Shown here piece by piece: positions 56,560-63,018 of a stretch of DNA of 64,000 nt. The translations under genes and the position numbers were made by a program. The stretch is taken from NCBI GenBank assembly GCA_009917445.1, contig QZEE01000005.1:62001-126000 (forward strand), written 5' to 3'. The stretch is from a bacterium D16-76. GTDB lineage: Bacteria > Bacillota > Clostridia > Oscillospirales > Acutalibacteraceae. The notes beneath the pieces were generated by a model, which saw only the letters and a list, made by a program, of their open reading frames with translations, did no database searches and had not been told where the DNA came from. Positions within the stretch are counted from its first letter, which is position 1; the number at the start of each line of letters is the position of its first letter.

Positions 56560-56763
56560 AAAAAGCACCCACATGGGGTACCGGGCTAAAAGCGCCGTGG
56601 TACAAACACACGTGGGTGCGATTGGTTTTAGGGTCAAGCCCTTTTTTCAAAAGGGCTTGTGGGGGTTGGGGGTGAGCGTCTGCCATGTGGCAAAACGTTT
56701 TGCGCAGCAATACGTTTACAAGCTGCGATCCGACCGAGCCGGGAGGCGGGACCGCCCCAAGGT
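56560..56763. repeat. Intergenic repeat block (inverted modules D and A)
   Basis: AAAAAGCACCCACATGGGGT, GGTACCGGGCTAAAAGCGCC and CACGTGGGTGC are the reverse of the 6620-6725 module. Then GCCCTTTTTTCAAAAGGGC and an inverted module A from about 56660. It ends exactly at the stop codon of the isomerase gene. Confidence 0.87.
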
Positions 56764-57584
56764 CACCAGCCCAGGGATTTGAGATACTGGCGGCTCATGG
56801 TGATAGCTTCCATGGGGGTGCGGCCGTTAGACTGGTCTTGCTCGACAACGACCCAGCTGGCGCCTGCTTCTAGGCTGGCTTCCAGGATGGAGGGGAAGTC
56901 CTGCATGCCGCTGCCTACGGGGCGGAACTCGAAGAAGCCGTGGCTTTCCTGCTCTTCTACGTCGGTGCCGATGAGCTGGTACATGTTGGCGGGCTTGCCC
57001 TCTTTGTAGAAGTCCTTGAGATGGACCACCGGCGCGCGGCCTGTGTACTTTTTAATATAAGCCGCAGGGTTCTCGCCGGCTACGTTTACCCAGCAGGTGT
57101 CGATCTCGGTCTGCAGGATGTCGGCGGGGATGGTCTCGTAAATGTAGTCCAGGGCGTAGCGGCCGTCGGGCATCTTGATAAACTCAAAATCGTGGTTGTG
57201 GTACAGGGTCTGGATGCCGTGGGCTTTGCAGGCCTTGCCGATCTCTTCAAAAAGCTTTACGTTGCCTTCAAACTTGGGGGTGCCGGGGCGGTCTTCTTCC
57301 ATCAGGTAGGGGATGGCGATGTATTTTACGCCAATCTCTACATACTTCTGGATGGTGCCTTCCATGTCGGCCACCAGCTCCTGGAAGGGGACGTGGGCGG
57401 AAACAGCCTGGAGGCCCGCGGCTTCGATGGCGGCCTTGATCTCGGCGGGCTCTTTGCCGTAAAGGCCGGCCAGCTCTACACCGTCGTAGCCGATCTCTTT
57501 AATCTTTTTCATGGTACCGGCAAAGTCTTTCTCGGCGTCATCACGGACGGAATAGACCTGCACGGCAACGGGTAAGGTTTTCAT
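56763..57584 (-). CDS. Sugar phosphate isomerase/epimerase-like TIM barrel protein
   Basis: A 273-residue AP-endonuclease-2-type TIM barrel. PVAVQVYSVRDDAEKDF, IGYDGVELAGLYG, QTLYHNHDFEFIK and the metal-site pair TEIDTCWVNVAGENP and PVVHLKDFYKEGK are conserved. Members include xylose isomerase-like and inosose-type enzymes; no substrate can be named. AAAGGATG precedes the ATG. It follows the MurT/GatD-like pair and may be its third gene. Confidence 0.9.
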   Translation of the reverse strand: MKTLPVAVQVYSVRDDAEKDFAGTMKKIKEIGYDGVELAGLYGKEPAEIKAAIEAAGLQAVSAHVPFQELVADMEGTIQKYVEIGVKYIAIPYLMEEDRPGTPKFEGNVKLFEEIGKACKAHGIQTLYHNHDFEFIKMPDGRYALDYIYETIPADILQTEIDTCWVNVAGENPAAYIKKYTGRAPVVHLKDFYKEGKPANMYQLIGTDVEEQESHGFFEFRPVGSGMQDFPSILEASLEAGASWVVVEQDQSNGRTPMEAITMSRQYLKSLGW

Positions 57585-57614: not shown

Positions 57615-58406
57615 TCAACCCCGGCGCAGCTTTGACTTTAGGATATTATACCAGGATTTGGGGGAAAAATCAATCTTCAACTGGTTCGTATCCCCTTCTT
57701 TTTCCATGCGCACCGCCGGGTCCTTAAACTCTTTCAGGCGCTGGGCGTAGGCCCGCTTCACGGCGTCTTCATAGGCCAGGGGGGCGTCTTTGGCGCCCAT
57801 GCTGTCCAGCAGCCAGCGGGTAAAGGGCGGGTTCATCACCAGCAGGGGGCCGATAAGGTAGGTGCCGATAAAATTGTTCTGGCGTATGCCCTCCAGGGGG
57901 GTATCACGGTTAAGGCCTATGCCACGCTGCGCTTTGGCAAAATAGTTTTGGGAGTTGTCACCGTAAGCCATGGTGAACTGGGATTTGCAGCCTAAAACCT
58001 CCATGCCCTGGAAGCCCCCCAGGAAATTGGAGTTGTGGCGGTGGAGGTAGTTGCGCTTGGCGGTAAGGCTGAACAGGCCCAGGCCGGGGATTTTCCGGCC
58101 GTTGTCCTCGATTTCTTGAAAAAGGGTCTCCACGGCGTTGCCGGTGAAGAGGAAATGGGCGCCGCCGGCTATGAGCCCGGCCAGCTGCTCTTTATAGGGC
58201 ATAAGGCGCTGGATGGCTTTCTCCTGGGCGGGCTCGGACATGGGGCCCATGTAGATCAGGTCTATGGGCTCTGTCAGGAACCGGGGGGCGCTGTTCATGG
58301 GGGTCTCGATAAATTCGGCTTGGGGCAGGCAGGCTTTCAGGTACAGGATGTTGCCCATGTCGCCGAAAAGGTTGGCGTATTCGGGGTATAAAATCTCGAT
58401 CTTCAT
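57615..58406 (-). CDS. GatD-like glutamine amidotransferase without the catalytic Cys and His
   Basis: A 263-residue class I amidotransferase-like protein encoded next to a MurT-like Mur ligase. In lipid II isoglutaminyl synthase GatD supplies ammonia from glutamine. Here the expected nucleophile position reads FLFTGNAVE, with Thr88 in place of Cys, and the expected YLHGPLL motif reads TYLIGPLL, with Ile185 in place of His. Spacing between the two sites (97 residues) fits the active family, so the alignment is probably right. The rest (DLIYMGPMSEPAQEKA, IGTYL) is well kept. It would need free ammonia or another role. It starts two bases after the murT stop. Confidence 0.85.
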   Translation of the reverse strand: MKIEILYPEYANLFGDMGNILYLKACLPQAEFIETPMNSAPRFLTEPIDLIYMGPMSEPAQEKAIQRLMPYKEQLAGLIAGGAHFLFTGNAVETLFQEIEDNGRKIPGLGLFSLTAKRNYLHRHNSNFLGGFQGMEVLGCKSQFTMAYGDNSQNYFAKAQRGIGLNRDTPLEGIRQNNFIGTYLIGPLLVMNPPFTRWLLDSMGAKDAPLAYEDAVKRAYAQRLKEFKDPAVRMEKEGDTNQLKIDFSPKSWYNILKSKLRRG

Positions 58407-58407
58407 G

Positions 58408-59787
58408 TTAGCAGGCCTCCTTCCCGTTTATGCGCTTCACAAGCTCGTCCCGGGCCCGGCGGGCGTCCGGCACGGTAAACACGGCGTGGAGGATATAGAC
58501 CTTGTCCACGTTGTCCAGGTCCACCAGGGCGGCGGCTTCCTCGGGCTGGGGGGCGGCGTGGACCCGGGAGGGCTCCATGCCCGCCAGGAGGGCCCGGACC
58601 TGGTAGTCGTAGCACCGGTTGCCCGTGGGGATCAGCTGCTTGACGCAATCGTTCCGGAGGAATTCATAGTCCACCTCGTAAAGCCAGCCGATGTTCTCGG
58701 AGGAATGGGCCTGGTCGTGGCTGTCGTAATTTAGCAGGATGATGGCTGCCCGGCCCCCCTGGCGGGTGATGAAGTCAAACACCCGGGAGCTGGCAATGGG
58801 GCTTTGGCCTTTTGCCAGGCAGAAAATGACCTCCTTATCCCCCACCTTTTCCACGTCGTAGCGGGAACGGGCCAGCTGTGCCCCCTGCAGCGCGCCGGCC
58901 ACCTGCTGGTAAGACAGGCCCCGGTCCCGCAGGAAGGCTACGGCGGTAACGGTGTTGTACAGGTCGGTAATGTTGGCGCCGGGCAGGCGGTAGGCTTCTT
59001 CCCCATGCGGGGTCCGCAGGGTGAATTCCATGGCGTCCATATCCACGGCGGTGCAGTCGTATGCAATGGGATGGGTGCCCCAGCCGCACTGGGGGCAATG
59101 GGCCCGGCCGATATGGTTGTAGCGGAGGAAATCGTAGGAAAGGGGGGTGTCGCACTCTGGGCAGCAGACAATATCCCGCACCAGGTTGGGCCGGGATCCG
59201 CTGTCCCGGGGCAGCTGGCTTATGCCAAAACACACCCGCTGGCTGCCGGGGGCCAGGTGGCTGGCAATCAGGTCGTCGCCGTTTACCACCAGCTTGGCGC
59301 CTTGCCACAGGTTCTCGTTGATGAGCTTTACAATGAAATCCACGTTGGCGTTGCGGTCCAGGGCGTCCCGGCAGAGGTTGGTGCACAGGAAGGTGCTGGG
59401 CTTGATGTAGGGCAGGATCAGGGGGGCGGAACGCTCGTCAAACTCAAAGATGGCCAGGTCGTGCTTGGGGCGGCCGAAAAAGGTGCTGCCCGCAATCAGG
59501 GTAGAGGCAAGACCCGTGTTGACATTGGCCCCGCCCCGGTTGCACAGGTAGTCTACACCGTTTGCCGTCAGGATGTCTTCGATCAGGTTGGCCACGGTGG
59601 TTTTGCCGTTGGTGCCGGCCACCAGCACCACTTCTTTGGGCAGGGGCATGCGGCCCAGGAAATCCGGGCACAGGATGATGGCCCAGGAGCCCGGCATGGA
59701 GGTGCCCTTGCGGCCGATGAGCTTTAGGACAAGGGCTGTGCATTTGGCAAAGAAAAGGGCAAAATAAAAGCGGAAGTTGCGCTTCAA
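58408..59787 (-). CDS. MurT-like Mur ligase family protein
   Basis: A 459-residue ATP-dependent ligase fold. Walker A is VLVAGTNGKTTVANLIEDIL. The MurT zinc ribbon is visible (CCPECDTPLSYD, later CPQCGW), as is NVDFIVKLINENLWQGAKLVVN and NITDLYNTVTAVAFL. In standard MurT a DxDFE motif near the end completes the glutaminase site; here it reads WLYEVDYEFL. Start is TTG 59787 (first codons KRNFRFYF), with AGGAGG 8 bases upstream. With the GatD-like gene it resembles the lipid II amidation pair. Confidence 0.87.
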   Translation of the reverse strand: MKRNFRFYFALFFAKCTALVLKLIGRKGTSMPGSWAIILCPDFLGRMPLPKEVVLVAGTNGKTTVANLIEDILTANGVDYLCNRGGANVNTGLASTLIAGSTFFGRPKHDLAIFEFDERSAPLILPYIKPSTFLCTNLCRDALDRNANVDFIVKLINENLWQGAKLVVNGDDLIASHLAPGSQRVCFGISQLPRDSGSRPNLVRDIVCCPECDTPLSYDFLRYNHIGRAHCPQCGWGTHPIAYDCTAVDMDAMEFTLRTPHGEEAYRLPGANITDLYNTVTAVAFLRDRGLSYQQVAGALQGAQLARSRYDVEKVGDKEVIFCLAKGQSPIASSRVFDFITRQGGRAAIILLNYDSHDQAHSSENIGWLYEVDYEFLRNDCVKQLIPTGNRCYDYQVRALLAGMEPSRVHAAPQPEEAAALVDLDNVDKVYILHAVFTVPDARRARDELVKRINGKEAC

Positions 59788-59821
59788 GGCGATAGCCTCC
59801 TTTTGTTTTCTACTGGAAAGT

Positions 59822-62182: not shown

Positions 62183-63018
62183 TATGAAACGGCCCCAGAA
62201 AGGGTGATCTGCGTGTACCAGTGCTGCATTGAGATCATGGCGGCGCTGGGGTTGGAGGACCATGTCATCGCCTCTTATAACCTGGACAATGAGGTGAAGG
62301 ATGAGTGGAAGCCGGCCTTTGAGAAGATGCACTATGACGATTCCGTGTTCGCCCCGGATAAGGAGACCGTCACCATGCTGGAGCCGGACATGATTTTCTC
62401 CTGGGACTCCTACTTTGGCGAGAAAACCTGGGGGACGTGTACGGCTGGAATGAAAAGGGTGTGGCCACCTACATCGCCAGCAACAGCGGCGCTGTGCCGG
62501 AGCGCACCCTGGAGAACGAGTACAGCGACATCCTCAACATCGGCAGGATCTTCGGTGTGGAGGATAAAGCCCAGGCCCTGGTGGATGAAATCAAGGCTCA
62601 GGTGGCGGATACCCTGAAAAAGGCCGAGGGCCATGACCCGGTGCGGGTGGCCGTGGTGGAGCCCCTGGGCGGGGACATTACCAATTATGCCGCCAACTCC
62701 CTGGCTGGGGACATGGTAAAGGCACTGGGCGGCGAACTGGTAAAGCCCGAGGGCAGCGAGATGGGCAAGGAGGACCTGGTAGCCTTTGACCCGGATGTGA
62801 TTTTTGTAGTGTACATGGCCTATTCCGGGGATGACCCGGAAACTGTGAAACAGCAGCAATTGGCGGTGATACAGGATGACCCCGCCTTAGCAAGCCTGTC
62901 CGCCGTAAAGAACGGCCGGGTGCACCTTATCATGCTGGGGGATATGTACGCCAGCGGCCCCCGCACCGGGGATGGCATCGCGGTGCTGGCCAAGGGCATG
63001 TACCCGGACCTAGGTTAA
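62183..63018 (+). pseudogene. Iron/cobalamin ABC substrate-binding protein, truncated and frameshifted
   Basis: Two overlapping frames together give a BtuF/FhuD-type periplasmic-binding protein. The first reads RVICVYQCCIEIMAALGLED to IFSWDSYFGEKT; the second continues DVYGWNEKGVATYIASNSGA to the stop at 63018. One base, most likely a C near 62427, is missing at the join. The start of the gene, with its lipoprotein signal, is replaced by integrase sequence. No permease or ATPase partner is present. The protein is surely inactive. Confidence 0.85.

Follow-up and report, generated by a model that had tools for sequence, protein, structure and literature searches.

A Clostridia MurT/GatD-like gene pair that lacks the glutaminase catalytic residues is a candidate glutamine-independent amine ligase

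The enzyme pair MurT/GatD has been described as dependent on glutamine, and its presence suggests D-isoglutamine in the cell wall. We analyzed a 64,000-nucleotide stretch of contig QZEE01000005.1 from the Acutalibacteraceae bacterium D16-76 (the window), which carries a related gene pair on its minus strand, and found that the GatD-like protein lacks the catalytic residues of a glutaminase. The MurT-like gene comes first (58408..59787, 459 amino acids). It starts with TTG, and a ribosome-binding site, AGGAGG, can be read from the sequence 5' of this codon (59796..59801). A single base separates it from the GatD-like gene (57615..58406, 263 amino acids).

The pair is homologous to MurT/GatD in sequence and in fold. 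The MurT-like protein contains the MurT_C and Mur_ligase_M domains (PF08353, 58.7 bits, and PF08245, 27.9 bits), and its best relative among solved structures is MurT 7q8e (2.6e-51); sequence, fold, and the residues for ATP and Mg2+ place it in the Mur ligase fold family. The GatD-like protein has no Pfam match, but matched the solved GatD chains in sequence (2.2e-9 to 9.9e-7). Scores with the NCBIfam models were low, reaching 41 and 36 bits for GatD (cut-offs 450 and 400) and 181 and 144 bits for MurT (cut-offs of 800). AlphaFold models were built from 43 sequences for the GatD-like protein (predicted local distance difference test score, pLDDT, 91) and from 37 sequences for the MurT-like protein (pLDDT 88). 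Foldseek matched them first with known GatD chains (the first nine matches, best E 1.4e-18) and MurT chains (the first 13 matches, E 3.4e-30). Among relatives that have a name, Neglectibacter sp. X58 comes nearest (83% across GatD). The pair is under purifying selection: the ratio of nonsynonymous to synonymous substitution rates (dN/dS) was 0.11-0.17 against two close relatives; in a third comparison, with L061, synonymous sites had reached saturation. Together with the open frames, these values rule out a frameshift or decay of the pair.

For S. aureus, a catalytic triad of GatD Cys94 and His189 and MurT Asp349 has been proposed (PMC6113224). In the window, the nucleophile elbow reads Thr88-Gly89-Asn90 (58137..58145) instead of Cys94-Gly95. 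Because of a one-residue gap in the alignment, the Cys94 column falls on either Thr88 or Gly89, with no Cys near; in the model, the strand 85-88 ends with Thr88 and the helix 89-95 starts with Gly89. Profile alignments place Ile185 (57852..57854) at the position of the catalytic His189 and Pro55 (58242..58244) at that of the oxyanion-hole Gly60. The latter position is mostly Pro (0.67) in group A and Ser (0.57) in group B, two of the three non-catalytic groups (A, B, and C) into which we sorted the relatives. Arg123 (58038..58040), the equivalent of the glutamine-capturing Arg128 (PMC5871853), is kept, with Arg at a frequency of 0.98 in group A and 1.00 in group B. The GatD-like protein has the fold of an active class I glutamine amidotransferase, but neither the nucleophile Cys nor the His nor the oxyanion hole.

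The original prediction had named Thr88 and Ile185 for the two GatD positions, and had assigned the third member of the triad to the MurT motif EVDYE. That last assignment was wrong, as EVDYE begins at S. aureus D355, six residues past D349, which by counting falls in GRDTSW. The true triad position is Asn365 in the alignment (58693..58695), and the conclusion that all three residues were lost survives because the true triad Asp is replaced as well. In S. aureus MurT, the same exchange, D349N, severely reduced activity (PMC6113224). Misalignment as the cause of the missing residues, already judged unlikely in the prediction, is ruled out by the agreement between profile alignments, fold matches, and many relatives.

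Relatives were collected by scanning one genome per each of 84,980 species; 484 were found, and the best 80 were kept. The two scan patterns spanned the His189 and Gly60 columns, so these columns are biased in the best-80 set, and the Cys and Asp columns are unbiased. Among the best 80, the elbow reads TGN in 79 and TSN in one, the His189 column reads I in 51, L in 23, and V in 6, and 72 of the 78 MurT-bearing loci have N at the Asp349 position. One of these relatives (L137) has a Cys immediately before the elbow Thr. In a wider set of 166 non-catalytic rows, sorted by the absence of His189 and including some genes fetched twice, the His189 column has I in 80, L in 60, T in 12, V in 8, S in 4, and Q in 2. 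The Asp349 column of 163 non-catalytic MurT rows, again with some genes fetched twice, reads N 107, E 21, D 19, and other residues 16, versus D in 45/45 canonical rows.

The old glutaminase site and the interface loop of MurT are remodelled yet still conserved. In a census of residues in 111 group A and 30 group B rows (S. aureus numbering), 17 of 51 GatD sites were kept and 16 were changed, including G60, C94, G95, Q98, H149, and H189. Across 43 relatives of the GatD-like protein, T88, N90, E93, and R123 are invariant and K141 and Q143 nearly so. The region of the old active site, for which columns were picked around the known site and some of which frame the fold, was more conserved than the rest of the protein, with an entropy of 0.99 versus 1.94 bits in group A (62 thinned rows) and 0.95 versus 2.15 bits in group B (29 rows). 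In neither group did any of 10000 shuffles give a value as low.

For MurT, the same census covered 65 sites with a conservation of 90% or more in canonical proteins; both groups keep 34 of these, and 11 are changed in both. Those kept include the GTNGKT core for ATP binding (59599..59616 in the window; T56 and T61 are Ser in group B), N80, N85, E108, D110, E111, D134, R138, R298, K315, and N316. The zinc ribbon (59086..59163) is also kept, with its four cysteines C202, C205, C224, and C226 at 0.99-1.00 in A and B. Changed in both groups are D137 and E141 in the interface loop, N341, D346, and G347 on the side of D349, and A84, L219, M299, E300, G319, and K384; D349 was counted as changed for group A.

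The interface loop reads RNAN in the window (59344..59355), usually RNAH or RNGH in the relatives, and usually R-Y-G-E in canonical proteins. At loop position 141, 44/45 canonical rows have E, and the 163 non-catalytic rows have H in 135, N in 10 (the window included), D in 10, E in 5, T in one, and a gap in 2. By eye, the loop His lies beyond the D-H position that we take to be a Mg2+ ligand of MurC-F, and we do not claim that the two are the same. RN alone was considered as a marker of non-catalytic pairs, and is weakened by Ruminococcus albus, which has RNGE with a canonical GatD. On the aligned rows, Glu141 to His is the better marker. In S. pneumoniae, D136 and R140 of this loop, which match kept residues, matter, and D139 and E143 have a minor effect (PMC6085368).

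Judged from the residues read, the loss extends far beyond one genome and is found among many gut Clostridia. The family and class samples were not picked by residue, and they share some genomes. In the family sample, 52 of 150 genomes carry MurT, and Cys and His are both lost in 40 of the 52. Sorted from alignments, these genomes comprise 21 with group A, 17 with B only, 2 with C, and 12 with canonical pairs. In the class sample, 180 of 341 Clostridia genomes matched the GatD (group A) profile. Bits with this profile classify poorly, since canonical proteins overlap group C and some of B, and therefore a canonical profile was run too. We called a copy canonical-scoring at 225 bits or more with that profile (the next score is 184). 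It matched 226 genomes versus 180; the extra ones scored below the canonical range. A canonical-scoring copy was present in 141 of the 180 genomes, and residues were read in 16 of these, 15 with Cys and His and one with Asp for His. All 39 genomes lacking such a copy were read: they have only copies without the catalytic Cys, and 38 of them lack both Cys and His. By group, A or B accounts for 30 of them (divergent rows included) and C for 8. These counts bear out the proposal of a coordinated, clade-wide loss as opposed to a chance error.

In the phylum sample, 77 of 249 genomes matched the GatD profile. Of the 20 loci read from other classes, 17 are canonical; L201 lacks Cys and His, L202 lacks Cys, and L203 lacks His. 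Cultured carriers of group A pairs include Frisingicoccus caecimuris DSM 28559 and Anaeromassilibacillus senegalensis An867. Vescimonas fastidiosa MM35 also has a group A pair, with its GatD annotated as a hypothetical protein. A single-protein scan of viruses, reaching close relatives only, found no viral carrier.

Some loci deviate from these patterns. The remaining genome of the 39, G151, has MurT and GatD homologues fused in one 863-codon frame (L221/L227), in which the Cys is lost and the His and the MurT Asp are kept. The canonical-scoring exception, G237, encodes a canonical-looking GatD (L175) that keeps the Cys and the MurT Asp and has Asp for the catalytic His. Group C is a third non-catalytic branch (L047, L054, L176, L211-L216, L220, L224, and L225), with elbows such as VGTT or TGTS, the motif FTN-LGP, and the MurT loop QKDQVQRNGDP.

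A phylogeny of MurT sets the non-catalytic rows apart. In an unrooted tree of 107 of 172 rows, built by a quick search with no bootstrap after removal of the triad and loop columns, 81 non-catalytic rows lie on one side of a branch supported by the Shimodaira-Hasegawa-like approximate likelihood ratio test (SH-aLRT 97). Since the Cys is present in the active glutamine amidotransferases of this class, loss is the simpler reading. The window's genome (a 99.98% complete assembly) gave one MurT_C and one GatD match, and hence no second, normal pair was found there. Group A or B pairs occurred together with a canonical pair in 0/150 family genomes (38 A/B, 12 canonical; Fisher p 0.026, phylogeny ignored) and in 0/341 class genomes (30 A/B, 141 canonical-scoring; Fisher p 4e-8, phylogeny ignored). 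Ten species within one genus have a pair, with one match each: A is found in 4, B in 3, and a canonical pair in 3. Since A/B pairs were never found with canonical ones in these samples, yet both kinds occur within one genus, they look like replacements of canonical pairs. Canonical murT-gatD genes were also seen on large plasmids, namely pRUMAL02 of Ruminococcus albus 7 (L231, typed conjugative) and a Monoglobus plasmid (L230), in line with horizontal exchange of the operon.

In S. aureus, MurT alone is inactive, and GatD is needed even when ammonia is supplied; with the GatD C94G mutant, amidation at pH 8.5 still proceeds from NH3 but no longer from Gln (PMC3266927). Because most ligase residues are kept and C94G still uses NH3, free ammonia or another donor, both named in the original prediction, is the best reading left. 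The window would then encode a MurT/GatD complex with a naturally dead glutaminase half and an intact ligase half. Bacteria with such pairs probably draw on free ammonia or another amine, not on the nitrogen of glutamine, to modify their cell-wall precursors. We give an even chance to the proposal that the pair is a glutamine-independent amine ligase acting on D-glutamate (D-Glu) of peptidoglycan, most likely with ammonia. MurT would phosphorylate the alpha-carboxyl of D-Glu on the lipid-linked precursor, and an amine of non-glutamine origin would attack the activated carboxyl. The likeliest amine would be free ammonia or ammonium, plentiful in gut and rumen, giving D-isoglutamine as with canonical pairs. 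The GatD-like subunit would be retained since MurT needs a docked partner, and the amine may be captured or deprotonated by the remodelled, conserved pocket together with the new MurT loop, in which position 141 is usually His. Donor, acceptor, product, and the role of the pocket are predictions.

Several observations weigh against this proposal. S. aureus MurT/GatD used NH3 at pH 8.5 only and not at pH 7.5 (PMC3266927), so that a pair relying on ammonia would require an improved site for it. The conserved pocket would fit a different ligand better than plain ammonia, since a pure scaffold would need none. A84, which lies beside the acceptor residue N85, is mostly Ser in A and B. At loop position 141, the window carries Asn instead of His. 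The GatD and MurT genes of G060 are found on separate contigs. No MurT match was obtained in 98/150 family genomes, and the modification is therefore dispensable in the family. Pairs also coexist: in G477 group C accompanies a canonical pair, in G425 it accompanies an A-lineage pair, and G717, from another class, holds a canonical pair and the non-catalytic L201. Three family genomes carry two non-catalytic pairs; G084 and G107, counted in group A, have B as well, and G038 has two pairs of the A lineage. Because of this coexistence some members may do something else, and group C in particular may have a different job.

It is possible, though we rate it as a minority view, that the donor is different and that what is joined to the D-Glu alpha-carboxyl is a primary amine or an amino acid (a diamine or glycine, for example), which GatD, turned into a binding domain, presents to MurT. 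A pocket that is remodelled and conserved rather than relaxed in 43 relatives and in the entropy test would suit such a role, as would a new conserved loop residue in both A and B; the exclusion with canonical pairs is in keeping with both kinds competing for one carboxyl. However, no recurrent neighbour gene hinting at an amine was recognised when clusters at 78 loci were judged by eye, and the window's genome has no FemAB-type match. A link to the diamines of Selenomonas found no support in a weak test: of the 63 phylum-sample genomes that are Omp85-positive, 8 matched the GatD profile (MurT was not searched for, and no genome was identified as Selenomonas), and the two read (L205 and L206) are canonical. 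Canonical, too, is a plasmid pair of Leifsonia, which we take to be a genus with amino-acid-substituted D-Glu. The genome's own MurE (L179) reads DNSR; DNPR is presumably the usual MurE motif, which would bear on a lysine- versus diaminopimelate-type wall. More specifically, and quite tentatively, a glutaminase turned amine-binding subunit may serve throughout a large Clostridia branch to join an amino acid or small amine other than ammonia to the alpha-carboxyl of D-Glu. We know of no genes for an enzyme attaching such an amine to D-Glu, and the branch would be a candidate.

The GatD-like protein could instead be a relaxed relic that merely stabilises MurT with little amidation, or a regulator that senses glutamine or a precursor through the kept Arg. 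The loss of catalytic and oxyanion residues alongside a retained Arg128 equivalent, and the 98 family genomes that do without MurT, are compatible with this; a dN/dS of 0.11-0.17, kept ATP and acceptor residues, and the persistence of the pair across the genomes of hundreds of species (484 relatives, residues read in 80) make it unlikely. That MurT phosphorylates the carboxyl of a different cell-wall or non-wall substrate is suggested by the altered A84 and by group C, a branch that may act elsewhere given its occurrence with canonical (G477) or A-lineage (G425) pairs. The non-peptidoglycan substrate of the original prediction is nevertheless less likely given the exclusion with canonical pairs and the kept acceptor contacts N85 and D110/E111; A, B, and canonical pairs moreover alternate within one genus, and we consider another acceptor improbable. 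That a glutaminase survives on a different set of residues, with Thr88, say, as the nucleophile and some other base, seems very improbable. In its favour, the elbow strand of the model ends with Thr88, the Arg that captures Gln is retained, and a His stands no more than three columns from the lost one in 20 of the 166 non-catalytic rows, as with THL in group B. The window, however, has no His near position 185 and a Pro at oxyanion Gly60, and the published exchanges C94S and C94G abolish the use of Gln (PMC6113224, PMC3266927).

The surroundings of the pair were compared across 78 loci, 2 of the 80 relatives not being anchored. MurT lies directly upstream of GatD in 74 of them. In the window, a gene for a xylose-isomerase-like TIM-barrel protein (56763-57584, minus strand; iolE model 59.6 bits, cut-off 290) follows 30 bases downstream of gatD. 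The original prediction was right that a sugar-isomerase-like gene lies downstream on the same strand; its membership in the system is not supported, since a homologue lies within six genes in only 7/78 loci, in 2 of the 7 downstream on the same strand. About 30 of the 78 group A loci (L059-L138) have rlmN-, PP2C phosphatase-, and Ser/Thr kinase-like genes, named by eye, downstream of gatD, a cluster presumably tied to wall sensing. Farther along the plus strand, a solute-binding-protein-like gene (62204-63018) is apparently split, by eye, into overlapping frames (62204-62617 and 62437-63018), which suggests a frameshift or an assembly error.

If the ammonia proposal is true, the wall chemistry of the carriers would be tied to ammonia in their surroundings; otherwise, they would make a wall modification of which no description was found in the open-access literature. 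Attachment of a non-ammonia amine would be a new route of cell-wall modification in gut bacteria. As for immune relevance, caution is advised, as D-Glu amidation did not alter NOD2 activation in one study (PMC4995902). murT-gatD has been described as widespread in Clostridiales, and the passages concerned do not divide catalytic from non-catalytic pairs (PMC6085368). Searches of open-access papers gave no title or abstract that describes MurT/GatD pairs lacking the catalytic residues.

Among known systems, the transfer of a diamine, and thus of a non-ammonia amine, to D-Glu in Selenomonas and Veillonella resembles the proposal of a different donor, without evidence that this pair is used there. 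Cadaverine and putrescine have been reported as wall-bound in these genera (PMC12826042). Archaeal MurT-like proteins (PMC11915815) share with the present pairs the lack of an active GatD; in MurT-like-only species no GatD homologue is present, whereas the pairs described here retain one. The S. aureus C94G mutant, which retains NH3-dependent lipid II amidation at pH 8.5 (PMC3266927), has a dead glutaminase in common with the window pair, but here the loss is natural, involves many residues, and is accompanied by changes in MurT; by analogy, the natural pairs look like this mutant made permanent. Closest of all are the MurT/GatD complexes of S. aureus (6gs2/7q8e), S. pneumoniae (6fqb), and S. 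pyogenes (9sq9), with which the window pair shares folds, gene order, zinc ribbon, Arg128, and most ATP and acceptor residues of the Mur ligase. Unlike them, it has lost Cys94, His189, oxyanion Gly60, and, as do most of its relatives, MurT Asp349; its interface loop is changed, and it scores far under the NCBIfam cut-offs.

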